From assembly GCF_043641665.1 (NCBI RefSeq), contig NC_092203.1, positions 7,858,067-7,922,066 of the forward strand: a stretch of 64,000 bases of DNA, in the 5' to 3' direction. How positions within the stretch are numbered: the first letter of the stretch is position 1; each line of letters opens with the position of its first letter. Below, piece after piece: positions 313-62,250 of the stretch. The notes under the pieces were generated by a model. That model ran no database searches. It was given only the letters and a program-made list of their open reading frames with translations, and was not told the origin of the DNA. Position numbers and translations under genes: made by a program. This stretch comes from Enoplosus armatus (Eukaryota > Chordata > Actinopteri > Centrarchiformes > Enoplosidae).

Positions 313-395
313 CTGGCTGCCACCACCACAGACTGGCGTTGTCCAAACAAGGTGAACGAATGAGGGACTCCCCACTCCTCCTCACTTTCTCGGAT
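313..395 (-). CDS. farp1: farp1 exon 23: PH1, last exon inside the window
   Basis: An 83-nt exon, acceptor TTTCAG and donor [26 protein letters not shown] then QSVVVAA. The next exon (human SEMEKWVEDIQ) is not found in positions 1-312, so the gene continues off the left edge. Confidence 0.95.
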
Positions 396-2214
396 CTGAA
401 AAAACATCATCATCCAACTTAAATACACTCCTAATCCTTTACAGTACATGCATGTAAACCAAACCCACAATCACTTATAACAACAACATACGATGTAAAA
501 ATAAGCCCTAACATCTAAATAAAACACGATTTCACCCTAAAACTTCTTGTAAAGAAGGAAAACTTTGCAGGTTTCAGTTCTGCACCATTCAACCTTGCAG
601 TACATGTGTTGCTAATGGAATATGGCCACGTACCGTCATGCCATACAGGGGCAGCTGGCCATGAACTTTAAACTGGTTAGACGGGGTCATTCCTCGACTG
701 GTGTACACCAAGGAATCACTGAACTACAGAGGACGAAGAGAAGAAAGAAAAGTGAGAAGTGGAGGCTAGATTTCTTTGCTTTTATCGCCAACATTAGATT
801 CACTTTGAAAAGTTGCTGAAATGTCATACCAGGAAGAACATCCTCTGCTGAAGGCCCTTCCCTGAGAGCTTGCTGAGGCAACCGAGCCTGATGAATTCCT
901 GTAAGTTAAACATTAACAACAAAAAAAAATATGAGAGCAACAGAGAGAAAGCCAAGATCCATAAATGAGCAGAATGGAGGAGATTTTGCAGGTCTAATCT
1001 AGGCCTCAAGCACGGAAACTAACTATTTAAGTAATAACAGAGTCTGACCCTCCCGGGGATGGCGAGGTTGTCGATGCCGGTAAGATCTTTCTTCAGCTCA
1101 AGAAGCTTCTGGAAGTTCTCCATCTTCATCATGGAGCCTTGCAGCTGCAGCACCATCTCTGAGATGTCAGCCAAAGCCGCTGAAGGGAAGGTGAAGAGAT
1201 GGTTATATAAAAAAACACACACATTTAGTTTCGCATGTACAAAAATACATATGTTGGAGGAAAAGGTGGAGATGCTGCACACAAAAAGGCACTCGTGTAC
1301 CTCTACAGTCCCTGAAGTCATCGTGGGTGGGCGGGAAGTGCTTGCAGAGCCTCTCCAGGATGAGTTTGTAGTGCAGCAGGCGGTGGAGAGGCCGGAGGAG
1401 GAAGATGTTGAAGGGCAGGTAGCAAACTCTCTGCTGCTCAAAGTCTCGACACAGAGCCTCGGCCTTCCGACTGGACCTGAGGAACAGTGAGGGGGAGGGA
1501 AGTGGTGCTTTTCACAATGCTCCCACAAAGTATAATGTTTTTCTCTGTCATCTTTTCTACCTCATATTTCCATTATTTTTATAGTTTCTTCTGTTATTTC
1601 ATTCATAGTTTGGCTGGTTGAATATTCTGATAAGAGAGTGCATTAACTTTCTTACTTCATGCCTGCTGATAATTGGACCTTTGCTTACAGTTTACTTATG
1701 GTTTTGTTCTGCGTCACCTACCTGCAGACCCGTTCCAGTTCGACCAGGCACTCTGAATGTTTCTGAAGATGAACCGTCAACTGCTGCAGATGCAAAAGAG
1801 AGAAAACAAATTAAAAACAGATAAGAGGCAGAGAGACAAACAATCTATATGTATTTAATTAAAAACAACCCTTCTACCCTTCTTGTTTCACAAAGAGGGC
1901 GTCTATAATTTCTACATCTGTACTGTAAATCATATACTGACAGCGTGGGGTTATAGAGGGAGATCTAGTTACCCTCAGACCCTGAATGTTCTTCAGGAGA
2001 ATGTCACCAATGCGTTGATAGTCTCCTTTAATGTGGGCGTTGGAGCGGCCCTCCCTGAGAGAGAGAAGAAATGAAGATCTTGCAGTAACATTTATCCACC
2101 AGTAGATGTCAGGCCAGAGCTGAAGAAGTTTCTCACACGACTGGAAAATCTTCATCAATTCCCACAATCCCATTCATCTTACCAGCAAGTCCCTGGGCCC
2201 TCTCCAAAAGCATG

Positions 2215-2286
<72 letters not shown>

Positions 2287-5200
2287 TCCTGTCTGTCATT
2301 ACAGAAATAACACAGACAAGATTCCCACAGGAGGAAATGAGGACTTTGCATGTGCACTTCAGCTCCCATGCAAAGTCACATTAGTCTTTTCATGTTATTA
2401 TGTATTCATGGTTTAGGTTTTAATTAAAATGACATATTGTGATGCTGGTACGCAACTTAGTGATAAAAAGTATTGTGCTGTTGCAAACTTTCTTCATTAA
2501 TGATCTCATTTGTCACAAGTTAAAGGAAATGAGTGAATCCACAGAATTCAAATCACCTTATTTCTCCTTCTTCACTGATGTTTTTTGCTTCCTTGACTTT
2601 CCCCCAAAGCTGGTTGTATGTTGTTGTGAAACATGATACAGATACTGATACAGAAACACTACAGTGGAGTGAATGTCTTTGTTTTTGTCTTGCCAAAGCA
2701 CAATAGCAAATTGCCAAACACTAATCTGGTCTTAAAATTCTTCTCATTTTTGTGGTGGATGTGTTTTGTTTAAATCAAGTAATCCTATTTAAATTGCCAA
2801 ACTTTTCTGAATGGGAACAGACGGATACTGACCACTGTGCCAGCCGCTGCTCCACCTCTTTGAGGAATCCCTGGTGAAACTTGTGGACCGGATCGTAGCT
2901 GGTGGAGATCAGGTTCTTAACGGAGTCCGGGAAGGCCTCATCTTTCCCCGCAATACTCTCGAAGGACTACAGTAGACAAAGAAAACATTCACACTTCTTC
3001 ACGCACCGTCTGACATCAAAAATTCTAAATCACGTCAAGCTTTATCTCCGTCTTCTGTCTTATCTCTGTGCGTCCTCAGAATGAGCAATCAGCAGTCACA
3101 AAGAGCCACATTAAGGGAAGTAATATGCAAGTGACGACACAGTGAAGCAAAGAATTCATTTAAGGTTAAAGCCAAAACAATTCATCGATTAGTCGAGAGG
3201 CAGAAAATGAATCTGCAGCTGTTTTGATAATTTCTTTCTTTAGATTTGCTGCTTTTCTTTGTCTTATATAATTACAACTTGTATATTTTGGGGTTTTGGA
3301 CTGTTGGTATTTTTGGTGTTTTTACCACTATTTCCTGATGTTTATAGACCAAATGATTAATGAATTAACTGAGAACATTTGTCAGAATAATCTATAATGA
3401 AAATAATCGATAGTTGCAGCCCGAGTCAAGGTAAGATGAGACCTGTCCTATAAAAACATGCTTTAAAACAAACTAATGCACCATATAAAAGTACTTTGAA
3501 ATCACTATCACACATCCACATCTCCAAAACAGACAGTGACAGTGATTACAAGTGACTTATATGAGCAACCACACACACGGAAACACACACATTACTGGTA
3601 TGATCCCCCCGAATAGGAGGTCGTGGTCAGAATGAATGATTTGACTTGAAAGCACAATGGCATTTGTTTGCACTGAGGATCAGCTAACACACACACACAC
3701 ACACACACACGCACGCACAGTGATCCTCCTGGCCCCAAGCGAGATAGTACACAACAACCCCTGACCCCTTTCAGAGTGAATCACACACGATTATGACAGC
3801 TAGTGCAGACAGGAGGCCGTCCAGCTGTTTCACAGAAGGACTCGGCGGGAGAGAGGAAGGGTGACAGCGAGAAGAGGGAGGGAGGGGCGGGGTTATGGGA
3901 TCTCAGGGCTGAGTGGTGCCAGCCAAAGAAAATATTTAAGAGGTAAAAAGTGCCAGCGCACGCCTTCCTCCCACATGAAAGAGGGTGGAAACTACTGTTG
4001 AGAAGAAAAACAGCTGAGAGGCAGAAAAAGACACGAGAGGGGAAATATGATATTTTTCCCTCCGCAGCGAGGTCAGAGGTCACAGTCAGATTCATACGAT
4101 TAAGGTGATGGGGTCTTCAGCTTCTGCAGGGGCTTGAACCTGTGTTTACCCCATTGGTGGTCTCTCTCCTCATTACCCCCCTGCTGCTGATTTTCCCCTC
4201 ATTTGTTAGTAACAGGCAGTAAAAACAGACAGACAGTAAAGTTGAATCACATAAAACTGCAGAGACAAAGTCTGACCCACATTAGGCTGCACCTTCATCC
4301 CAGGATTAAAGTTGAAGAGTGGATTTTTTTTCCTCTGTGTTGATTTTAGTGTTTCCACCTGGGAGCGAATAGTCTGTGTAGTCTTAAGGTCGCTGGCTCA
4401 AAAAGGAGGTGAATTATAACATATGCATTGCTTTCTTGTGAAAAACAAAAGAGTGAACGTCATTTAAAAAACGTATAATGTGCTCACATGGAAGCTGTAT
4501 TTTCATCTGTCATCTCTCCTGCACAAAGCTTCAGATGTTGAACCTCAGTCTTCACTCGTGGGCCAAACTAAATGCACATAAAAGCCCATTTTCGGGATGG
4601 GAATAAAAAAAGTAAAAAATACAGGAACAGAGAGTTCAACTTAAGCTCCTTGTCCCAATTTTTGGCATTCAAAAGACCAAGCTGAGCTCACTTTCCCAAT
4701 ATTTAGGCTATAAAATCACCAGTGCAAGTGCTGATTCACAAACCAACTCTGACTGTCCCAACACGTGAGCTTTTAAAAAGACCAACTTTAGCTCACGGTC
4801 CCAAAATTCAGGCTTTGAAATAACCAGCTTTGACTCACTATTCCAGTACAGAGGCTTTAAAGAGACCAACTGTGGTTCAGGGTCCCTCTGTGTGCTCTGC
4901 AGGGCTGTGTGCTTTAGGGAATGTGTTTACACTTGGCCAGAGTAGCTCTTGGTCTTAACACAGATGGCTTTTCAAACATCTCTCTCTCTCAGCCAGTTGA
5001 GAATGGCCCTGCAGTTAGAATCGACATGGCAGAGCGAACAAACACTTAATCACCATCAAAAGAGTGATTTTGTAGCTTCTGTGGCTGTTTTCAAAACTAC
5101 ATCATCGAAAGAAACGATAGAAATGTGTAAAAATGTCCTCCTTACCTCTGTGATGACCTGCAGGTCTTTGAGGTAGGTCCGCTCTGTGGTCAACAGTTCC

Positions 5201-8200
5201 TTGGCGATGAAGTAGGCCTTGTCTGTAGGAAACTTCTGGACACAAACAGAAAGATAAGATCGATCCATCTGTCCACCCATTCACCTATCCACTGATCAGT
5301 TCCTTTTCTTTCTCATCCATCCACCATCTCCCTGTCTGTACGCTCACCTTCCTCCTCGCCTCCTCTTCATCGTCATTGCGGACACATCCGGCGTCGGTGA
5401 GCAGCGGGCTGGTGAGAGGTGATAGCTGCCGTGCTTCAGGACTCTGACCTGGACCCAGGATGCTGCCCATCCCCTGCCCATTTACCGAGCCGTTGCCGTT
5501 AACAACCACACAGGGACTTCCCCCTGGAGAGTCCTCTGAACCGGGACTTTCTGGGGGAGGAGAGGAAAATAAGAAAATGGAGAGTGGGAGGGAGACGGGG
5601 ACAGGAATAGAACAAAGAGTGAGATAAGGGAGAAGATAGCAGGAGAGGATAAGGGATGGAGTTAAAATAGATTCAAAGCCATTCAGCTACTTTAAAGAAA
5701 TTCACAGCCATCTCCCTTATCATTTAATTCTTATAGTCACATTTTCTTTCTTTCCTCTCAGTGGAGGGAAAGGCTTCTTGATTCACCCTGCATTTAGAGG
5801 CTCAGCATATGAACATATTCCCCAAATACTTCCTCCAAAAGTACCCAACCTGTATGGCGATGAATTTCAGGGTTACACAGCGCTACGTAATCAATTATAA
5901 ATCATGGGTCAGGACCCAAAATGAGCAGCTGTCACGTTCAGGCAGGTCGCCACATGACAAAAATGCTACGATCCCTAATCTCTCAAGGAGGCTACGTCTA
6001 CACTATTTCTCTATTTGGATCCTCATCTAACATATGGTTAAAAAGAAGATGAAAAGAAGGAAAAAAATAGCAATAAATGTTAAGAATATATTAGTAAGGA
6101 GCTATGGATTACCAGTTTATTTGCAAGACTTAATAAAGACCATATCTGTGCATTATAAGAGTAAGTAAAAAGACAAATGATGCATGTCCGAGGATTCATT
6201 TTCTGTTGATCGACTAATCGATTAATCAACTAATCGTTTCAGCTCTAGTTGACAATCTATGAATACTATATTACTCTTTCCATTCCCCTTACAATGCACT
6301 ATAGATATGATCTTCTATACATAGGTGATAGTCTTGCTGGTTGTGATGATGCCTAAAATCATCTGTTTTCTAATAGGAGTCTGGTCTGGTCTAACTTTTT
6401 GGGGACAGAAGAATAAAAGGTAAAACCTACTTTTCACTACAGCTAGAGTCACTACAGAGGTTTACTACATGGTACTAAATTGTGACTGTATACTTGCCCA
6501 GGTGCAAAGTTTCCAAAGAGTCCACTGTTATACACCAAACTGGATCATGGGTAAAACCATGGCAACCACTGAGTGCAGATCTGTGATGGGTGCTATAAAA
6601 GAACTTGCCACCATACAGAAGAAAAACTACAACGACACAAAACACAGGTGAAACAACGAGCTAACAGAAGCTAGAAAACACGGAAACACAGACAGAAACG
6701 GATCCAATCATGTGCGCACATGCTGAACAAACAGTGTCGAACAAAACGAACAACCTCTACTCTACAGTCTAGCTACCACAACACAAGACACGGGTGGGGG
6801 GGGTCACAATTCAAGCAGGGTAGGTAGGTGGGGCAGGGGTAGTTGGACATCGGTTCCCTCTACAGAAAATTCTGGAGTCCCTTTTCTTCGAACATACAAG
6901 GTCGTTTTTTTATTGACACTAGTGCACAAAATCAGTTACAGTGTTAAAAGGAGAGATGAAGGGTAAAGAAAAAAACTTTTAAGAAAAAAAAAATCCAGTA
7001 GGTGTTTTGTGAAATGCAAGAATACAAAGTGTTACAAGAGTGACAAAGAAAACCAGTGAGTCAGTGAGTCTTTAGGCCATTAATCAGAGTGCGTCCAGGG
7101 AAAAATGATCATTTCAATGCCTTTCTTTTGACTTGGCAGCACTTTGACCTTTGCATGCTCAGTATTTATTGTGATTTTATGTTTTAGAGATGCTGCAAAG
7201 CCTGTCACTCAACAGAGACATGCACCATGAAATACAGGACATGCAAACTAAAGCTGCCACCAATCTTCAAATCACAAAAATTAGAAGAATGGCCAGAAAG
7301 ACGGTTTATTCCTTCAAAAGAAGTCAGTCAGTAAAAAGTGTATTATGTAAACAGGAAGAGAAGCATAGATGTGATGCTACAACGCCACCGTATACCATTT
7401 TAATAATCTAAATGATAGAAAATGGTTTGACATTTTGGGAGATATGCTTGTTTGGTTTCTTGCTGAGAGTTGTTTACATGAAACCGAATTCATAGCCCAA
7501 AATGTTGAACTATTTGAGAAGAAGAAACTACAATCATTTTACTTTTCATCTTTTAAGATAATCTAGCAAATTTGGCTCTGATTAACCCCATTAACATACA
7601 AATTACAATATGAATACAAAAATCACAATCTATCAGCCTGTTACTGTATGTACAGTACATTAACTTTACAAAAAGCCTCAATGGGAGTGACTTGCTGCGA
7701 CTGCTATTTGGTGACAGGCAGTGAAAGGGAAGACAAGGTGGACTCAACTCCAGTATTCATGTATGTGTGTCCATCTTCTGACAATACTCAGACATTCACA
7801 CCTTACAAAATAAAATGCTGCGTCTCTCAAAGACTTTTTTCTTTTATATTTGCACCTACATTTGCATTTAGCTTAACTTTACTTTTATCTGTCTACCTTC
7901 GCCCTCTCACTCTGCGTTAAAAGAGTACTGGAGTCAAGTCAGCCCTGTTGTGTCCTTGTGCACAGTGAGGAAACCTGGGGCAAAAAAAAAACACAAATGG
8001 TTTCTAAATATTTGAAAAAGACAGGGTGCAGTTACTTAAACATGATGGTGTAGTAACAAAAAAAAGGCATGAAAACTGTAATATCCCACGAGAAGTGAAG
8101 AGGAGTTTGTGTCTGAAAAAAGGGAACGTTACACATTTACTGCACCTAATGCCTCTCAAACATCTGAAACCATTTTGAGCCCAATGACAGAAACAAGAAG

Positions 8201-11200
8201 TGACAAAGTGAGCCAAAACAGAGCAGAATGACAGAAAAGCAGGGACTTTGCTTGCCTGGTTAACATGCGTTCAGAGTAAAGAAAAGGAAACGGTGAGAAA
8301 ACAGCATTGTGTTTCCCACTAACAGAAGACATGCTTAAAAACAGTGCATATACAAAGCGTGAACATTTGTTTCAGGACGCAGCAGTAGCTCTGAGGAAAG
8401 AAAAGCTTGTTCGGCTTTAGAAGCTGAGAACACATGATAAGATCCCATACGTTAACTCACTTCGTAGATTGAAACCTCACTGTTTTGGGGAGCACTAAGG
8501 CTCCCTGAGTCATAGCATATTCATGGAAAAGTGGCTAAGAAGGTATCTCTGATATAGCATGTCCTGAAATGAGGACTAATTCTTGTGTTTTTATGGACTG
8601 TGAGTCAATAATTAATAAGCATCTTTAGTTACAAAGCTGATCCAAATTCAGAAAAGTTTGTATGCTAATTCAAAATATAATTTGTATTGCTAGCTGTCTC
8701 TATTTCCAAAAAAACAAAGTGACAGCGGTTCTTCAAGCTAAATGCTAATGTCAGCATGCTAACATGCACACCATGACAACGCTAACATTGCTGATGTTTA
8801 GCAGGTGTAATGTTTCACATGTTCACAATCATAGATTAGCGTGTTAATATGCTAACATGTGCTAATTAGCAATAAACACAAAGTACAGCTGAGGCTGATG
8901 GGAATGTCTTTAGCTTAGCTTAAACCAAAGTATTGGTCAAATTAAGACTTAGCAAAACACAGCAAAATAATGTGTTGAATTTTACAAAACAATCAACAGG
9001 CTTTATCCTAATTCAGTGTTGCAGTGAAAACAAAAGAAGCATGTGCAAATGACCGTGATGGGGATGGAGTGCCGGCACACCTTCAATAAGAAGAAAGAAC
9101 AGCATCCAAAGGAAGTGAAAGATAACAAAGAGCTACCTTCTTTTGTGTGTGGTCGTAGAACATGCCAGGGGCCAAGCCGAGCAAAGCAGACAGCTATGGA
9201 TGGTCACAGGTTTAAGGACGATGGTTGGCGTGTTTGATTATTGCTTATTGTGTGAAAGAAAGAAAAAAAGAACGACAGAAAGAAATAAAGACTGAAAAAA
9301 GCCCATGACCAACCAAGAAGTAGAATAAGCGCGTATAATGCATCTTCAGCAGAAATGCAGACACACATGGAGCTGCAGTTATTATCAAAAATACAGATAT
9401 AAAAAGGTTAGGGTCATGATCATACTCTCCCTAACATTTTAATTGATGCAAATCTATTCCTCCACTAACGGTAAATACAAAAGAGAACTACTACAAGAAG
9501 TCTCTACCACAAACATCCAAATTACAGTGCAAGTTGCCCACGACAGACAGACAGAAGTCGAATGAAAGCGTAAAAAAGTGCTCCAAAAGAAAAGGACGTC
9601 AGCTCGGCCAAAACCGAATGAGAAAGGCGAGACCGGCCGTTAGCTACAGCCTTCCTCCTCCGCCAGATCCCCATAGCTCACACATTTTAACACCTTTCTC
9701 TACCAAGTCAAGTGTATTACTCCAAGTACAATCTCTAACAAGAACATTCGAGTATACTGTACAATTAAAGGGGAATACCTCTCGTGTTATCCTAGTGGTT
9801 TAACACAGTCCGAACAACCACATACTGTATATAACATCTGACATAAAACAGCTTTCCCCTTAAAAACCTCCAAAGACTTCCCATTGAACTCCAGCTATCA
9901 TCTTAAAGCCCTTCTATTGCACGAGACAACAGTCATTATAAAAGTTTGATTTAGAGAAAATGCTACATTAGGACACTAACATTATTACAACAAACAGTCG
10001 AGTTCTGTTAATGACCAAGAAAGGCAGCTGATCAACTCAACAGCTTCCAGCTTTCAGAATCAAAGCCACCTAAAAATCAATTCATCTCTTGCTTCAACGC
10101 CTTAATATCTCAACAACAAGAAAATATCGTTTAGAAACGTGAGCTACAATAAGGTGAATCCTCCTATTTCTCCGAAACGGAATAGGAGAAATCATATGAT
10201 TACGAATAATATCGATGCTATCAAATGATTTGTGAAGAAAAACGAGGAGGAATTGTAGAAACAATCTTCCCCACAAAAAACTACAATTCTACACGTGAAG
10301 GTTTTCCTTTAGATTTCTAAGAAGACTTCCCAACATAATCTGTATTTTTCATCTGCACATACAACTACACTGAATATACAGTTATGGCACATTGTAAGGA
10401 AGATTTTTCTTGAGACATTACTCAGGCTGATTCTTAAAGGTTTTACAGAGAGCTGGCAGAATTGCCTCCAGGCTTTGACAAATAAGTATTTACTACACGT
10501 GGAGTTAGACTAAAGGTTTGCATACAAAATTCAATACAAAAAAAGGGGGATTTTTGGAAACAATGGACGTGTTATCATTAATCTAAAGGTAGGGCTGGTG
10601 TTTCTATTCACAGTTAAAACCCCACAAAATGTGTCAAAAATATGTTAGAACCTTTGCACAAAATGTGTGCTATATAAGGTGTACATCACAGCTTACCTAG
10701 TGTCAACAGGTGGACTAGATCTACAGTATCGCACAGTTGTGTACTTCTATTTCAATATTCGACTATTAATGGAGCCTTTTTCGGTCTTCATTAATGTAAC
10801 TGGGTGATTAAGTTTGACAGTTTAGCTCTAATACACTAAATTGAGATTATGCTGAACTGCTTGCATATCTTTACCCTTCAACAGCTGAAGACCCGACCCC
10901 CTATATCTTCCTCGTTAAAGCGGTAGCACCCTTCCTCCTCCTCTCCCTCACCATCCTCCCCCTCCTCCAGCTGGAGACTCCCGAAGGAGAACTTGCTACG
11001 AGGCAAGGGCGACGAGTTCACACCGTTCGAGTTGACCGAATTCATGGAACTGACGGCAGCAGGATTGCCGTACATTAACGGCTGGCTGTACGCGCTGCTG
11101 CCGGTGTCTGACTCTGTGTCGCTGGTGTCGGTGCCACTGCTGGTAGATCCGTCGATCATTTGGACCGGCTGGTTTAGGTTGTTGTTACGGGTCGGGTTGT

Positions 11201-14200
11201 TACCGGGCTTTCCCTGACGACCAAACAACCGCTGCACTGTGTTGGACCGTGCCTGACCTGGAACCAAGAGGTTCCCCGCATGATTCCCGTTAGTTATTAT
11301 CATCCTTCGCTCCATCGGGGCTGAACATGGGGCTTGGGCGTGCAACCCGGAGCGATGAGGGTCGTGGTGGTGGATGGGGGTGGATGTAAGCTGGCTGAGA
11401 ATGAATGGATCAGTATCAGAGCGGTTCCTCATGTTGTTGTTGTTATATGGTTTGGCAAAAAGTGGCGGTGTGCGGTTTGAGGTGATCGGGGAGTAGCTAC
11501 CGTAGTGGTTTGGTGGGTGGGATGGTGGCGGGACAGTGGGAGTTTCCACTGGGACTACTCCAGGACGTTTAGTGAAATAATGCCCGCCGTCATCCCAGCG
11601 TGAGGCAGAGCGCGGCTGGCCGTGGCCGTTTGTCATCTCAGCGTGGCTGAGAGAGTTTGTGCGGTGGTGGAAGCTGCTGATCACCGGGCTGGAACACTGA
11701 CTACGAGTCCCGGTTCCTAACGGTCGCCCTGTCGCTGCACCTCGCTTGTCTCGACCCTGAAGGATTTCGTCCAACAGGGTGCTGTGGAGCGGGAGGTGTC
11801 CATGAAATGAACCACCATTGTGTAAAATTTCATCATCTGTCAGCTCGTGACTGACATTAAACTTGTTAGACACTGGAGACTGATCTACAGTGCTCCGGTT
11901 ACCCAGCATACCTTGCTGCTGCTGCTGCTGCTGCTGCCCCATTATAACCTGCTGCTGATGCTGCTGCATCAGCCCCTGGTGATTGGTGTGGTAGAACCCA
12001 TTTACAACCCCAAACAGACTCCCAGCTTGCCCCCCATTGCGACTGCTACCCCCATGCTTATTATTATACACACAAGGCTCATCCGCATTGCTGTCATTTG
12101 CATTGCTGTGGCCCCTGGTGGCCCTGCTGTTCTTTGTCACATCACATTCACTGTCTATGTCGCTGCAGTCTATGTAAGGGATAGAGGAGCTGCTGCCTTT
12201 GTTTGCCCTGCAGGATGGACCTGGGTTGAGGAACTGCGGGTCCGGCGCTGATCCGGTGCCGTGGTGGTTCTGTCGGGACCGAGTCGGGTCTGAGCCGGGC
12301 GCTGCCGGTATATCGTGGTAGCCATTGGTGGAGGACGTGGCCGCTGGTGGCTCCTTTGAACCATTAGACTCAGCTGGACGGCCTGGTCTGGCCGAGTCAG
12401 GCTGGTCTGCTAACTGGACAGACATGGCACTCTGCGAATGAGGAAAGGGAAGAAAAACACAGAAGATGGAGCAAAAGAGGAGTGATGGGTCGAGGTCGAC
12501 AGGAGGAGACAGCTCAGGGGAGAAGCTCTTCAAACTCTTATTTAACTGGGCTCATTTAACTCAATCACTGACTTTGGATAAATTGCTATTTATGGGAACA
12601 GATAAGGAAACCAGCGAGCAGAGACAAGGCACACATTCAGACACACTCACTCCCCGGAGCTGCTCAGGACAAAAACAGCTTTATACTTTTGGCCAGAGAG
12701 CAGCTCCGGATTTAACCAGAGACACAGATAGTCTGTAAGGGTACAACAAATCACATGGAAAATAAAAGAGATAGAAACTAATGCAAAAAAAAAAAAAAGT
12801 GTGTATCACCTCTTTTGGCACTTGCGATCTGAAGGAAGGCGACTGAGGAGACATGCTGCTGTGGGACAAAATCTTACTGTGCTTCCTGGAAAGACAGGAG
12901 GGGACAGAAGAGGTCAAATCATGTGCAACTAATCAGGAAAACAGATATCTGATTGCTGGTTTGTGTCCTTTCTATCTGTTACAGAGTGATGGTGCTGGGG
13001 AGGTTCGGAGGGAACTTCACCTTTCAAATGGAACTTTCTTGAGCTCCGAGTCTTTCACATAATCGATGATCTGCTTCTGGGTTCGACCGCTGCAGGTACA
13101 CAAAGAGAGAAAAGCAGGCGGTGAAAAACAAATTACAGACAAATGCAAGCGTTTTCTATCCTTCCCTGTGTGTCCTCTCCTTACCTGAACCGGAATGAGG
13201 ATCCTCTGGTGAAGAGGATGGGCTTGGGTTTGGGCTTGGGCTCTTCGAAGAGCCTGAAGAAGGCGTGGTACTCTACACAGATCTTCCAGAAGACCTTGCA
13301 GCAATCCCTGCTGGCCATGGCAAACTCCAGCGTGTCGTGGTGGGCATTCTGCTGGAGGACGCAGAGGCAGATATAAGTACGGATGGCGGGAGGAAGAGAT
13401 GCAGGATGGATGATTAGACGGGTGGAGAGAGGAAGAGAGAAGACTGAGAAAAAGAAAGGAAGTGTTATATGACTTACAGTGGGGTCAGCTCTCAGCTTAA
13501 TTAGAAACCTTTTGCGCTTGAAGCTGAGCTTGCGAACCTTGGACCAGTTGAAGGCGTTAATTCTTGTGTAACCCTAAATAAAAGAGAAGACATAATTTTC
13601 ATGAAAAAATCTTTATCTTACAAGGGAAGGGATAAATTGAGATATCTGAAATATCATTAAAAATAAATAAATATATATATAGTGAAATATCTTCACCAGC
13701 AGATAAAGATAAGGTTAATAATTGTACACAAACTGCAGTAGTCAAGGAAAAGCACCACAAAAAAGATCGTATGTATGTATCACCGCTTTCCAGAAAACAC
13801 TTAAGGAATTTACAGCCCATACCTCTGACCTAGATATGCAGCCGAGTACTTGACTCTGGAACAACTCACATGTCAGCAGGACACTTTTAGATTTATAAGT
13901 AGGTCGTTGAATCTGATATTTATGGTTTTACCTGGAATACCAGCACCCCAGTGTGCGCCACAGCCAGACTGAGCTTAGTACCCTCTCTGTCCTTGGCTGG
14001 GTGCAGACGAACGCCGTACATCTCCAACCGCCGAGCGATTTCCAGCAGCTGGTAGTCCGACTCTGCAGGAGTCTGCCCGCTGTGGAGAAGAGCGATCAAT
14101 CGATTATCCATTAATCAACATACCAGGTCCTCTCACTCGTTCTCAAGCTGAAGCAAGAATATAAAAAAATATAGACTGAATTTCTCCTTTTTCTGTTCTG

Positions 14201-17200
14201 TTAGCTTGTACATAATGTGTCTCCAGGGACTGTTACCATGGCAACAACCATAAGGAATTTTTTTTAGAGCACTTACCTGAATGATATGTCAACATTCAGT
14301 TAGAAAGTAAACATCCCTTACAAAGTGCTCATGTGTCACCGTGTGTACTTTATGCACCAGATGTTAGACGTGACCCATTCCAGGTTTCCATTCCAAATTT
14401 ATTGTGAATGCAGAAACAACAAACAGTCTTCAAATACATCACGGCATCAGATGGCAAAACCCTCTGCGGGCGGAAAGAAATCTGCCACAAAAGAAGTTTG
14501 TTTCCTCACAAATCTGAAAATAGCTTCCTGTTTCCTGTATGAGCTGCTGAATTAGCCACTTCCTTCCTGCGTCGGTGGGTGAAGGATCGGGGGAGGAGGG
14601 GGAGGCAGCCCACAGAGAGAGAACGGGTTTGCGGTGCACAGGGTGACCATGACAGGTAATCAACAAGAATGCGGTTTGGTTTTCAGCTCTTATCTGTGGT
14701 TAAGTGAGGGTTTTAGGGGAATTTACATCTCCAGAAAACAAGGAAATGCATTTGTCATGTATTTGCAAACAGTGGCGGGGAAAGCACAGCTATAATGTAA
14801 ATGAGACGCGCTGTGTGAATGTGTGGTCCCCGGGGCACAGAGGGAGTACCAAGTGGTATGTTTGCAGACAGCCACCTCAGCGGGGGAGAGATTATGTGTG
14901 TGTGTGTGTGTGTGTGTTGTGGTTAAAGAGATAAACATCTCTGCCACTGAGAGACTTATGGGTTGGGTGTAATTGTGTAATGGGTGTGTTTGTGAGCACA
15001 CATTTGAATAAGCAGATAAATATTTGTGTGTGTGTGTGTGTGTGAGAGAGACTTGCTGTGGAAGTATATGTGTGTGTGTGTTTAAGTGAAAAACAATTTC
15101 TCCCGACACCTGCGACCTAGAAACTGATCCACAGTCAGACTAAAGCTCGGCTCAGTATTGTTTTTCAAGCACGGATTCATTTTGACCAGCTACTTCCAGG
15201 GAAAGAGAGCTGCCAATGTAACCTTTGCTTATTGTTTAAGCTTGACTGTGCAGAGTTTTATACTAGAGGGCACACTAATTCTCACAGTAACGATAAAACT
15301 TAAAATAATACAACACAATAAACACTTTACTGAGCAATTTGATGATGATAGTAATTTTTTTAACCAAAAAATGCCAAATATTTGCTTCTTAAAAGTGGGT
15401 ATTTGTTGCTTTTCTCAGTTTTACATTGTAAAAATGAACAACTTTGGATTTTGGACTGTTGCTCAGACGAACAAGCACTTTGAAGACGTCACCTTAGGCT
15501 CGTCGAAATTGTGATAGGCATTTTTCACTTAAAGCAGGCCTAATTACTATTTATAGTATACATTGAATATTTCATATGGAGATCCATTTGCTGACTTTAC
15601 CACCATGTAGAGTGAAAATATCCTGCCCTCCTTTAATCTGCTAAAAACTGAATGAGTCCATGTGAGCTTGTACATGCAGTATGTGGGTGTTTGGACACGC
15701 ATGTGATAACTTACACATGCTTGCGGTGGCAGTCAGTGATCTTGTCTCTGATGGCGTCCTGGTCAGGCAGGTACTTATTGTGGAGAAGATGCTGCCAGCT
15801 CTGGGTCTCATCGAAATCTCCTATCTCGGCTGGTGGAGGGAGAGAAGGAGGAGAGAGGTGGCAGAAGGGTGAGAATTCATTATTTATTTGGAGAGAAAAT
15901 GAAGAGAGAAATGGGGGGAAAGTGGGCGACAGGCGGTTGAGAGCAGATTAAATAAAGATGCAGAGTGTTGAGGAAAAGGAGACAAGGGAGTTTAAAAGAG
16001 GAAATGCAGAACGATACAGCAGTACTGTAAGCAAAAAAAAGAGAATATACATTGCTTAACTATGATTTATTGTTCCTGTCTCTGTTATAGTTAATCTTGT
16101 TCATACAGCATCCAAATCTGTTCTACTGTAGATCAAATGAAGTGTGCTGATGCATGTGTCTCCATCTGTCCAATACCAGCAAACAATAAACCCTCGTAGT
16201 GTAGCCACGCGCAGGTGCACATACGGGCGCAGCACTGGCGGTTACCACGGCAACCAAGTCATATTCTTTAGCATGCTGTGCCGTGGCCCGCCGCTGTCTG
16301 CAAGACTGAATTGAATCCATAAATCCTCACACATATGGTGCTGAATAACAACGGTCGCTGTGGTGAACACGGATGGTTTGACGAACAGGTGGCGGGCGGT
16401 GAAATAAATATAATGTTACTGGTTCTAAATATAAGGGAATACTGGTGCTTGATGAGACTGACAAGACAAGGGAATAAAGAAAGAGTGACGGGAGGGAAAC
16501 ATATCGTCCTTCAGCAGCATGAGCTGGGATCATGGCCTCATGCTGGCAAGCATCTGCCCTGCTGGAGTGAGCTGAATCCCAACAGAAGATCCCAACTTAC
16601 GACATCCTCTTCAGATAAGTGTTAAATATTGAGAAAGACAGCTTTGTATTGAATTGAAGCTGGTTTAAATTTGAACTAGTGACACACACGCCATAATACA
16701 GTAAGTGCTGCTGAAATACCCCCAAAGGGAATATCTGTCACACTTATGGAAAATGTAAAATTGCTGGCTTCAACAAGCTGCTAAAGTGATGAGTTATTCA
16801 GACATACAACTTCCTTCACATAAATGTTTGGCTTTATTCAGACATGGTAATTAATGCCAGCCATCATGCTAGCATTCACAGCATGTGTGTTGCACTCACA
16901 CTGGATGATGTGGGAGACCATGAGAGCAGCGCTGGTGTCGTTACAGATGAGACGGCCGCAGGCCAGGTCGCGTTTAATCTGCAGGGCAAACAGATACCTG
17001 GAGAAAGAGAGAATAAAAGATGCAACACAGACAGAAATAGAAGAGAGTGGAGGAGGAAGAAAAGGCAGAAAGCAAGGAGGTTATGAGGTTAATGCACACT
17101 TAATAACCTCAACTGTTAAAAGCAATTCCATTACCATCAAACTGCTGCCATTTATGCACATTCAAACACACAGTGCTGCTGATACATTGCATCTAATGAC

Positions 17201-20200
17201 TTAAAAACAATCTCTCATTGAGAAAACGCTCTTTTCTGTTAATCATTATACAGTCGGCTTCTTGTAACATGATCTGACTCACACACACATGCACTCAGCA
17301 TGCACGTGGTCATGACGCTGCATTTCAATCAGGAAACAGCAGAGACAGCACTATAAAGAAGACTGTAGATATATATATATAATACAAAACCTACCATCAG
17401 CTCTGTTTGCTATTATTTTGTACTGACGAATGTATTTTTGGAGGATTTGTTACATATTTCAGGGTAATAATGAAGCCAATGACAGAACAAACACAACCAG
17501 TCAGTAAAGAGGACAAAATTCAGTGTTTTTAAACATGGGTTTGGCTGATTCACCAGCTCTCTACTCACTGTATAAGGACAAATAGTGGACTGGCTGCAAG
17601 AGGTACATTCAGAGTGCATCCATGTGTGTATAAGTGTGTGATTACTGGTCCACAGCAGCTTTTTATGCGATAAGCAAATCAGCCTTTTTATAACTGCACG
17701 ATTAGCTCTCTAATAAAGTTAATGAGGCTTTGGTGAGTTTCAATATTTTTTTTATTTCAGCCTGGAGTAATTTCACTATTTAAGAACGCTGCACCAATTT
17801 AAATACATCAAGCCCATTCAAACTCTGTTATGGAGAATGCAACTTTGTAAAGTTCACAGTTCAGAGTGCTATCGTACGTAATGTAAACATATTAAACCTC
17901 ACCTTCAGTATATTGGAGCAGCACTAATTGGCGAGTGTCCCATTTTTAACAAAAGGCGAATATCATTTTGATAGATCTTCTAAGAAATACGTCTTGCATC
18001 TGTCTGTCTACATATTTGGTCTGTCTGCGCCCACGTTACCCATCAAAGGAAACATTGACAACAGTGAAATGCTGTGAGAGCCAAACAAAGGAAAAAAGGC
18101 TGTGTGCCCACTTCCTGTTAAATGCTACAGTCAGCTGGCACTCTCCAAGACGATATGAGATCAGTGGAATAAACTGGCGAGCTGAGAGGCCGAACAACGT
18201 CAGTGGAAAATATGTAAGGCGTTCCGAACTGGTGACGATGTTCTCTTGTGAAATTAAAGTTATAATCCTTAAATTAAAAACGATCCACTAAAATAACTGT
18301 TGTTTTGGTGTTTTGGTGGTCAGTTAGCACTAACGTCAGTAACCATTGCATTTCCTGTGACATCTTCACAATAATTTCCAATTGTGTTTTGCCAGCTGAA
18401 TGCTTTCAATTGTCATTTTCATTAGGAATTATTGTTATACGCTGCTGGGAAGTGCTCAAAAAATAAAGTGATACAATAATCAATAATTCTAGGCCATATC
18501 ATCACCACTGGTTTTCTAACATACTTTCATACTTTGGCCGGTTTGATTCATTTGCATTCTATGTGAAAAATGTCTTAAAAAGTCTAAAAGAGTCCCTGGC
18601 AATTTAAATTCAGCACAGGAGTGGCAGACCCCGCCACTTACCAAAACTATACTACTATATAGAGAGGTAATGTAAATACACTGAATGGTTATATATAAAT
18701 AGTATTAAAAATGGGGTTTGATTGTATGACAATCTTAAGGATTACTTGAAGTCTTTATTCAATCTCCGGAGATTCATTCACAGATGAGAGGCACTATGCT
18801 CGCTTCCTGCTTGGCTCTGGTCTCAAGTAAATCCAGCTGGGCACTTAGAGGGAACCACAGCATCATGGGAAAATGTGGAAGGTCAAATGTTTTGGTTATG
18901 TGATGCAAAACGGTGCTGTGCTGTAGCTGAAACTTGTGGAATGAGCTGAGACGAGCACAAACAGTGCAGTCGGCTCTGATGACTGTCAGACTAAACAAAA
19001 CAAAAACCCAGACAAGATGGTGGCTGATAGTTGACACTTTCCAAACAAGGAGTTTAAAAGGACTGAGGTCATAGGTAGGAAGATGAACATTAGTCCGGTA
19101 TGATTTCATCTTTGAATGCTAACAGGGCAAAAAAGATGCTTCTCCAGATACAGCCGGATGATGTGAGATTACTTTAACATCAAACCATGTCTTCTAGACG
19201 AACACACATAAGTCTCTTTACAGTAAAACAGCTTCAAAACTATGGCTCAAGACCCAAAAGTGGTCAGAGCACTCATCTCCTTTCAGCTGGTTTGGAACAA
19301 CAAATGTTTTCATGAGCCTGGTCCCCAGATGACAGACTAAAAGTTCTTGTTTGGGTCCAGAAAGGGAAAAAAAAACCTTGTTTGATGTTGTGGCATGTGG
19401 ATAGAAATGTGTTATAAATGTTAAGTGGCTGACAAAGGAACACAAAACAATACAAACAAGATGCAAACATATTTTAACAAGGCCTCTGCTTTATGTTTAG
19501 CTGCGAAAATCCTCCTGAAGGACTGGAAACATTCTGGCCAGACAGAAAACAAGATGTCTTTTAATCTAAGAAGGCCGTCCTCGGATAGGTGTGGTTTCTG
19601 TGTCGAGAAGACTTACCGAGTCAGCTCCTCCAAGAGTTGTGTGTGGTCAGGAGGGAAGAACTTCACCACAAAACGAAGGATGGTGTTTTTAGGCCCTGAT
19701 GGAGGGAGGGGGGGGGGTATGGTTAAGAAGGAAGAGACAGGAATCATTTCACCACCTTCTTCTTCATCTTTTTACACCTCAGTGTCTCACAAGACTTATT
19801 TTAAATGGCAGAATCATGCTCTTTATCATTCAGGTGGACTATCAAAGGGAAGGCTACACATTTAATACCACAACAGCAACACACAAGAGACGGCATCTGT
19901 GAGCTACTTACGTCTGATCTGTTTCAGCGTCGGCTTCAGCAGATCCAGCCACACCTACGGAGGACAGAGCACAGCTTGACTGTAGGCTTATTATTGTACG
20001 TCAAAGACTGTGACTGTGGTCCTTCGGTAAAGTATTGGTTTAATAGTTCGATAGCTAAATAAATATTAATTGTAGAATACTGGCATATCAGCGCGATTGC
20101 CACACAATTAGCATTTTAGCTTTGAGTATGTAACCTTAGTTAATTTGTCATCTAAATACCAATGATTTTTGATACTAAAATTATTTGTTTGGTTTATTTT

Positions 20201-21559
20201 GTTTGGTGCAAAAATCTCTGTATAATATAAACACATCAAATCCTTCAAACTATGTAATGTAACAAATGGAATATAGAACTTTCCTTGAAATAAAAGTTCA
20301 ATTTAAATACAGTTAATTTATTGCTGTCTACATTTGCTGAGTTGTTTGCCTGTAGACACATTTCTGGGGTCTGTAACTTCCTGTGTGTGTGTGGGCTGAC
20401 AATCGTGTCAGTATTTCTTCACCATTGCATCATTGGTTCTATTGATCCACTTCAAAACAACTGTTCTCATGCCCGAGGCACTGAAATGCACAGTGCGTGT
20501 CTGTGTTGGAGTACACTGAAGTATTTGTATGTGCATACTGATAGATACATGGGATAGTTCATCTGTCTTCTGTTGTCCTCCAGCTATGTTTCCCTTTATT
20601 ACGAGCTTTTTCCACGCACTAATGCAGATTCTACCAGCAGACGTTAGCAGACAATACAGACACAACCCTGTAGCATACAGCAAGTGTGCAAATTATTACA
20701 ACCAGCTGCTCTTTCATGAAATAGGGGGAACAACTGAGTCCAGGTGGATGCTTAAATCCACATAGATGTGGATGAAAGGAAGACAAGCAAAACAGGAAGT
20801 TTCAAGAGTCTCCATGCGTGCAGAATGTGGACCCGTGTGATTAAAACTGAGAGAGCAGCCTTGCTACGTCAATCTGCAGAAATAACAAGCAACATAACAG
20901 AATATAAGGTAATAAACACCCCTGTGTGCAACTGTGTAAGTGTGTGTGTTTGTGTCTCTCACTGTCATCTTGCGCTGGTCCTGGTACTCCAGTCCAAAGT
21001 AGTCTCCCTCTGCCAGGTTGAGATGGACACAAATCAGGTCAAACAGCACTTTGCCGGGGGAACGTTGCTGGAAGAGAAGAACAGAGGTGGAAAAAACAAA
21101 TGAGATTAAAATAAAGAGGAAACAGGGTGACAGGAGAGGTGAGAGGAGGAAAGTAATGCACAGGCCACAATGTCACACAGCAGCTCATCAGGGGAGTGCT
21201 GATAATAGAATAGAGGAGAACAGGAATGTGGGTCTTTTTCTTAAAGGTTATTCTGTATAAGTGATTTAACCCAATAAATTTCTACATGTGTCATCTACGT
21301 TTCCTTAGAAGTGCACATTATTTTCAAATATAACTAATTTCAAAAAGAAGCTGGTAGAAGCGGGTAAATCATGGTACAAGTACCCTAAAAAACCCTGATT
21401 CATGGAGGCCATTTTCTCTAACGAGGCTCTCCTCACTTAACGAGCCTCTGACCTTTGACCTTGATGTGGTCCGGGCGTCAGGTTTGGGTCTAATGAATAG
21501 CTGGAGGCCGAGGCTCAGCTGGGAGTGTTCAGAAACAACCTCAATGCCCCAGTAAAAGA

Positions 21560-46713: not shown

Positions 46714-62250
<15,537 letters not shown>

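Follow-up and report, generated by a model that had tools for sequence, protein, structure and literature searches.

Can a single vertebrate gene supply both a Rho-family guanine nucleotide exchange factor (RhoGEF) and an FRMD7-like protein without the exchange-factor domains? The question is raised by farp1 of the fish Enoplosus armatus, which lies in a 64,000-nt stretch of contig NC_092203.1 (positions 7,858,067-7,922,066), here called the window; all farp1 coordinates below are window positions. A large coding exon that ends in its own stop codon follows the FERM and FA exons of this gene and precedes exons for DH and PH domains. A sequence-only reading of the window had proposed that the locus may make both a FARP1-type and an FRMD7-type protein, and this proposal is supported here by orthologues of the short form, by homology of its tail to FRMD7, by matching exon junctions and by contigs that look spliced. 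We consider it highly probable that the exon is a composite terminal exon, with either the RhoGEF or an FRMD7-like protein lacking the exchange-factor part as its output.

Exon 12 of farp1 and its orthologues

An open reading frame (ORF) scan of the window found a minus-strand frame open from 12551 to a stop at 10880-10878, the longest stop-to-stop ORF present (557 aa; the runner-up has 192 aa). From the acceptor TTCGCAG/AGTGCC at 12431 (the slash marks the splice junction), 1554 nt remain, equal to 517 codons and a stop. The exon model was built with grouper protein P0005 as a guide (tblastn), and splice sites were then refined. Joined to exon 12 in frame by GT..AG introns, eleven more coding exons (39419-12810) complete a short-form model of 906 codons with zero internal stops, spread over 28.5 kb (Table 1). 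Tblastn with human FARP1 as the query located linker, DH and first-PH exons from about 5.5 kb down to 0.3 kb. A second-PH exon was not found by tblastn within the window, which suggests that farp1 continues beyond its low end. The sequence-only reading had described a 1554-nt in-phase exon with 517 open codons and its own stop, 12 coding exons counted from the start exon, FERM and FA exons before it and DH and PH exons downstream. All of this is borne out, on the minus strand, which had been left unstated, and positions 12431-10878 are confirmed as coding exon 12 of a teleost farp1.

The locus is a farp1 orthologue, with FERM-FA exons followed by DH/PH exons and closest to FARP1. The best PDB match of the close orthologue P0005 was the FARP1 FERM domain (6d2q; 554 bits, versus 462 for FARP2). 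In a FERM tree of 14 rows, from which Callorhinchus, Xenopus, gecko and elephant FRMD7 were absent (missed by the domain pattern), FARP1, FARP2 and FRMD7 each fell on one side of a branch, their order not being settled. The branch that sets the FARP1 rows apart had a support of 78/91, and the window FERM grouped with them, outside the FRMD7 clade (100/100). The possibility that the locus is itself an FRMD7 gene was rejected, given the DH/PH exons and the placement of the FERM domain outside that clade.

Of 6799 candidates, 155 proteins matched the window tail at E<=10 in a phmmer search. The best 120 of these 155 reach 6e-23 or better. Species-named matches among those 120 are teleosts, sterlet (P0105) and Callorhinchus (P0118, E 1.6e-23), and many are proteins of FERM, FA and tail of about 720-900 aa, two of them named isoform X4. 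A C-terminal F[SRN]C closes 106 of the same 120 (FSC in 87), and a similar end occurs in birds, gecko and frog. With the Callorhinchus tail (residues 370-751) as the query, 162 proteins were found among 7992 candidates scored, namely those sharing the most words. The best 120 of these 162 add birds (peafowl), lizard, gecko, Xenopus, Tasmanian devil, pig, bats, lemur, orang-utan ("FARP1 isoform 12") and human (P0154, 797 aa, partial). The Callorhinchus tail is 52% identical to that of sterlet over 97% of the query and 51% identical to that of peafowl over 96%. In turbot (Scophthalmus maximus) the tail occurs in two distinct gene models (P0022 and P0170), which suggests that it was retained in duplicated teleost copies of the gene.

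In at least six rows marked "lgn", a single ORF of 2289-2673 nt encodes FERM, FA and tail on a contig 2720-4544 nt long. All six listed carry the four FERM/FA Pfam domains; four end in FSC or FNC, and two, mammal-like, end in the acidic run. Because the same ORF spans 28.5 kb in the window gene, these contigs are probably spliced transcripts. These searches show that the exon is conserved across jawed vertebrates. The earlier view that this fish gene keeps both outputs is upheld as regards the presence of the exon, while any restriction to fish is not: a look at other vertebrates revealed orthologues in chimaera, sturgeon, teleosts and tetrapods, the last including frog, reptiles, birds and mammals, human among them.

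Several mammalian short-FARP1 models (P0131, P0139, P0151, P0154, P0157 and P0165) end near the acidic run, without the final FSC; they have either a shorter stop or are incomplete. Pfam found FERM and FA in P0024 and P0118. No family covers the tail in Pfam (window tail, P0118, P0122, P0182 and P0024) or NCBIfam (P0118, P0122, P0182 and window tail), and a DUF1908 match in Callorhinchus P0118 (E 0.026) fell under the Pfam cut-off. Exon 12 contains eight successive glutamines, mostly CAG codons (11913-11936, minus strand); grouper P0005 is without ten residues at this run, so the stretch is length-variable.

Relationship of the tail to FRMD7

In coding coordinates minus 117, the window junctions lie at 57, 162, 205, 284, 382, 497, 645, 741, 905, 974 and 1050. 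Published FRMD7 splice variants fix positions 57, 162, 205/206, 497/498, 645 and 974 (PMC9200781 Table 1) and 57, 162, 205, 284, 497/498, 645 and 1050 (PMC3163398 Table 1), with c.1050+1G>A labelled 'Intron 11' (PMC3163398). All eight FRMD7 positions found there coincide with window junctions, and 382, 741 and 905 were not found among the variants in the parts of these tables that were covered. FRMD7 is reported to have 12 exons (PMC3042361, PMC3163398), in agreement with the sequence-only reading, which had given it 12 with a large last one. Junctions 1-10 lie in FERM-FA and are expected in every close paralogue; the informative one is the eleventh, some 26 codons past the FERK stretch. The predicted short form of the window gene fits the FRMD7-type layout, consisting of FERM-FA, no DH/PH and a large last exon. 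Variants c.658+1, c.658+2 and c.659-2 (PMC7958879) fit no window junction and were taken to belong to GPR143, that paper's other gene.

Tail profiles that included some FA sequence were scored, and for that reason the comparison was repeated with the exon-12 parts alone. Against a profile of 172 FARP1-type tails, the part of human FRMD7 that follows the FA core reached 41.6 bits (C-terminal block 26.2; best of 5000 shuffles 9.0). Of eight FARP1 tails chosen for the reverse comparison, seven scored 18.7-41.6 bits against a profile of 120 FRMD7 tails, where the best of 6000 shuffles had 9.5. An earlier 110-row tail profile gave 13.3 bits (best shuffle 6.9 in 2000), and a 42-row profile, mostly non-teleost, gave 33.8 (best 10.0 in 5000). 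The exon-12-only profiles comprised 56 FARP1-type rows and 113 FRMD7 rows. The FRMD7 sequences compared were mammalian, and the human FRMD7 sequence that was used is identical to database entry P0182. A third protein search had 394 hits, of which the best 120 were covered. The 56-row profile scored human FRMD7 exon 12 at 26.5 bits, versus 5.4 for the best of 5000 full shuffles and 7.8 for the best of the local shuffles (8- and 12-residue blocks, 2 x 5000). In the other direction, the FRMD7 exon-12 profile placed 10 of 14 FARP1 tails at 14.4-30.8 bits, above all 7000 local shuffles (best 12.7). Profile-profile alignment with hhalign over gap-free columns returned a probability of 93.6, an E-value of 2.1e-7 and a score of 58.9, versus <=22.1 in 150 permutations.

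An alignment of 22 chosen rows shows, as common features, a stretch of Ser, Asp and Glu, a [YF]G pair, an acidic run and, close to the end, a Cys. The pattern SP-x-x-R-x-[KR]-x-S-x-GS-[LI]-[QR]-L-x-E is found in most of these rows, and SGSLQL is kept in 119 of 120 FRMD7 rows. The human FARP1 core of this terminal block has drifted: SRGSLGGLRLSEEQ. A block right behind the internal splice site of exon 12 (Table 1) has a candidate FRMD7 counterpart, SSSSFPFI, with a weak score of -2.1 bits, below zero.

These profiles show that the predicted C-terminal block of the orthologue family is homologous to that of FRMD7, the link of the window sequence running through its orthologues. The resemblance of C-termini claimed in the sequence-only reading consequently holds for the family, whose profiles exceed the shuffles, and not for the window sequence on its own, which is not significant; similarity beyond compositional bias, on which that claim had been made to depend, is present (26.5 bits against the best of 10,000 local shuffles).

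One database protein of Chinese hamster (P0297), labelled FERM, RhoGEF and pleckstrin domain-containing protein 1, has an FRMD7-like tail with 75% identity to human FRMD7 in the region searched and looks like a mislabelled FRMD7. Away from farp1, an ORF at 61714-62250 on the plus strand has RhoGAP matches, the closest being N-chimaerin (PDB 2osa, E 4e-39; Pfam RhoGAP E 5e-18). It was the sole match in a Pfam scan of 10 further window ORFs and probably represents exons of a chimaerin-like gene adjoining farp1.

Table 1. Window positions of farp1 exons, splice sites and tail elements
Feature	Position	Strand	Basis or remark
Coding exon 1	39246..39419	-	start codon at 39419; 93% identity to P0005 (tblastn); donor GGTGAGTA; ends at coding nt 174 = 57 + 117
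Coding exon 2 (FERM)	20963..21067	-	tblastn with P0005 and splice sites
Coding exon 3 (FERM)	19912..19954	-	tblastn with P0005 and splice sites
Coding exon 4 (FERM)	19617..19695	-	tblastn with P0005 and splice sites
Coding exon 5 (FERM)	16900..16997	-	tblastn with P0005 and splice sites
Coding exon 6 (FERM)	15715..15829	-	tblastn with P0005 and splice sites
Coding exon 7 (FERM)	13932..14079	-	tblastn with P0005 and splice sites
Coding exon 8 (FERM)	13478..13573	-	tblastn with P0005 and splice sites
Coding exon 9 (FERM end, FA start)	13185..13348	-	tandem CAGCAG acceptor
Coding exon 10 (FA)	13021..13089	-	tblastn with P0005 and splice sites; FA Pfam match of the surrounding ORF under cut-off
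Coding exon 11	12810..12885	-	ends at coding nt 1167 = 1050 + 117, matching the position of FRMD7 intron 11
Coding exon 12, large, own stop, FRMD7-type tail	10878..12431	-	ORF and acceptor; orthologues
First 211 nt of exon 12, probably common to the RhoGEF isoform	12221..12431	-	internal 5' site CAG/GTCCAT after 12221, phase 1; corresponds to the human PSTG/PASR junction
Conserved block right behind the internal splice site	12159..12200	-	loose pattern in 166 of 182 FARP1-type sequences
Terminal block, 85 codons and stop: Ser/acidic stretch, acidic run, FSC-stop	10878..11135	-	related to the FRMD7 C-terminus (profile comparisons)
Strongest donor-like site between 12560 and 9300, TAG/GTAAGC	10697	-	181 nt behind the stop; ad hoc matrix
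Next downstream exon, linker before DH	5348..5550	-	joins in frame to internal site 12221
RhoGEF-isoform exons for DH and the first PH	315..5238	-	tblastn pieces, unrefined span

Proposed composite use of exon 12 and its alternatives

The predicted internal 5' site at 12221 (phase 1) joins exon 5550-5348 in matching phase and without a stop, as a composite terminal exon requires. The human short form P0154 reads PSTG followed by PASRAARGSSTSIPFID, and human FARP1 in its long form reads PSTG followed by SLTGSPHLS; on this comparison the long form would leave the exon via an internal 5' site in a Gly-Pro codon pair. Gly-Pro stands at the internal junction in 136 of the 166 rows scored (Gly-Leu in 22, other pairs in 8), 16 of the 182 examined being unscorable. 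Mouse isoform 2 (P0166, 1278 aa) leaves the exon later, before the terminal block, and continues to DH; this exit inside the exon indicates that internal donors exist.

Splice-site competition is hypothesized to decide between the two outputs. Where the weak internal site, 211 nt into the exon, is used, the message would continue to the DH/PH exons and encode the FARP1 Rho-family exchange factor. Where it is skipped, the exon would be read to its own stop and give a FERM-FA protein without exchange-factor domains and with an FRMD7-like end. By analogy with FRMD7 and FRM-3A of C. elegans, the short protein is most likely a membrane-bound scaffold or adaptor that would keep the FERM-FA partners without the catalytic output, and it would compete with or complement the exchange-factor form at the same receptors.

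Several observations weigh against this reading. On the side of splicing, the internal site is weak (an ad hoc matrix gives -2.6), and its use was not observed in any fish transcript. A motif scan placed the first AATAAA 3567 nt behind the stop, with variants at 383 and 1434 nt, and DH sequence stands beside tail sequence in 12 of 181 FARP1 models, so that some predictions make the exon internal. On the side of homology, the window tail alone does not match FRMD7 significantly (tblastn E 0.92), it scores 5.7 bits against the 120-row FRMD7 profile, and with the exon-12-only FRMD7 profile it does not rise above the local shuffles. It is one of the four tails out of 14 in that position, the others being grouper, human and a partial paddlefish sequence. 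The 56-row profile behind the score of 26.5 bits includes the window itself and two DH-containing models (P0174 and P0176). An hhalign control with gapped columns misbehaved, 4 of 60 permutations exceeding 130 versus a real score of 48.3, and the comparison was redone gap-free. The signal is confined to about 85 terminal residues, the middles of the tails not aligning. The core pattern of the terminal block occurs in 103 of 181 FARP1-type rows (in 100 of 182 it falls inside the final 90 residues); among the rows without it are incomplete models, models with DH and ends that have drifted, and mammals are represented there. Finally, FERM-FA alone suffices in C. elegans, from which a specific function of the tail does not follow.

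The donor-like site at 10697 would permit a spliced, stop-containing version of the exon. It could then be a poison exon, read-through giving mainly early-stop messages that are spliced from this donor and removed by nonsense-mediated decay, and the exon tuning FARP1 dose instead of encoding a protein. Such a role would account for the region's strongest donor-like site lying 181 nt behind the stop and for the lack of AATAAA within 3.5 kb of it. We nevertheless regard it as quite improbable: pure dose control would not keep some 370 codons, whereas the tail protein is conserved over its length (52% in sterlet and 51% in peafowl versus Callorhinchus), and the spliced-looking contigs carry intact FERM, FA and tail ORFs.

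Very improbable, in our judgement, is that the exon is normally internal and extends the linker of a longer RhoGEF isoform, the version with the stop being a side product of annotation. Mouse isoform 2, Xenopus laevis and several fish models do join exon-12 sequence to DH/PH, and they are among the grounds for this explanation along with the 12 models noted above. The reading frame, however, has a conserved end: F[SRN]C in 106 of the best 120 of 155 rows, with birds, gecko and frog alike. The mouse isoform, moreover, exits before the terminal block, which would there serve the short form only. As for convergence between acidic, serine-rich disordered tails, the low complexity, the mere 85 or so aligned residues and the non-significance of the window sequence speak for it, but composition-preserving local shuffles fall far short of the real score and the terminal block ends a same-phase exon in paralogous genes, so that we find it extremely improbable. 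A composite terminal exon with two outputs remains the preferred explanation.

Probable evolution of the two outputs and comparison with known systems

The chromosome regions of FARP1, FARP2 and FRMD7 are related through early vertebrate genome duplications. Because two-output FARP genes occur in a nematode and in vertebrates, the two-output state is likely old. The ancestral FARP gene probably had two outputs, FRMD7 being the copy that would have kept the second alone after loss of DH/PH. In C. elegans, FRM-3A and FRM-3B share FERM-FA and both rescue GABA-A receptor content; FERM-FA is sufficient, the GEF-PH part is not, and FRM-3 recruits LIN-2/CASK (PMC7260190). Three frm-3 isoforms are described, two with FERM, and A and B are not distinguished by function in the available part of that source (PMC9632837). 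FRMD7 reportedly binds CASK and GABRA2 (PMC9200781); in full-length form only, it is reported to bind RhoGDI-alpha, releasing Rac1 (PMC3742540), and its C-terminus reportedly governs localisation (PMC3163398). We tentatively suggest, with slightly more doubt than confidence, that a pre-vertebrate FARP gene made a RhoGEF and a GEF-less synaptic scaffold from one composite exon, that after gene duplication FRMD7 kept the scaffold alone and FARP1, from sharks to humans, both, and that human FARP1 makes in the nervous system a short, FRMD7-like product which may in part overlap with or compensate for FRMD7 in CASK/GABA-A receptor scaffolding, with the terminal block as a common docking element.

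FRMD7 causes X-linked infantile nystagmus. A homologous FARP1 tail would give its orphan C-terminus a relative and a candidate redundant gene, and would provide well over a hundred tail sequences for mapping essential residues. According to published descriptions, the FRMD7 C-terminus lacks significant homology to any other protein (PMC3163398, PMC9200781). A frameshift in nystagmus, p.S672Pfs*12, is reported in FRMD7 (PMC7958879); the core of the block common to FARP1 and FRMD7 starts at S672, where this frameshift begins to remove it. The short FARP1 isoform is already in databases as an annotation and so is not new. In the literature searched, available in part and with most subscription papers outside it (it included PMC7260190, PMC10830384, PMC7507005, PMC11477271, PMC9632837, PMC3742540, PMC7958879, PMC3042361, PMC9200781, PMC3163398 and PMC10811807), nothing ties the FRMD7 tail to FARP1 or describes the short isoform in vertebrates. 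The composite exon would also unite vertebrate FARP1/FRMD7 with C. elegans frm-3, one exon choosing between catalytic and scaffold output.

Human FRMD7 (714 aa) is like the farp1 short form in its FERM-FA part, its large last exon, eight coincident splice positions and a related terminal block (SESSDSESE ... YG), and like it shows no DH/PH in a Pfam scan. It differs in being a separate protein, in a tail middle that does not align with that of farp1, and in its end: NYFLA follows Cys 709, which aligns with the last residue, the Cys of FSC, of the FARP1 short form. A PDZ-type end in FRMD7 is possible, as a guess. The canonical FARP1 RhoGEF (CDEP) comes from the same gene and shares exons 1-11 with the short form, probably along with the initial 211 nt of exon 12, and has DH-PH-PH in place of the tail. 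Mouse Farp1 isoform 2 holds part of the exon-12 tail and differs from the short form by its exit before the terminal block into DH/PH. In C. elegans frm-3, one locus encodes a common FERM-FA part followed by either a domainless C-terminus (FRM-3A) or GEF-PH-PH (FRM-3B), and the switch is reported to lie in splicing within the exon that ends the short form (PMC7260190); its likeness to farp1 is one of isoform layout.

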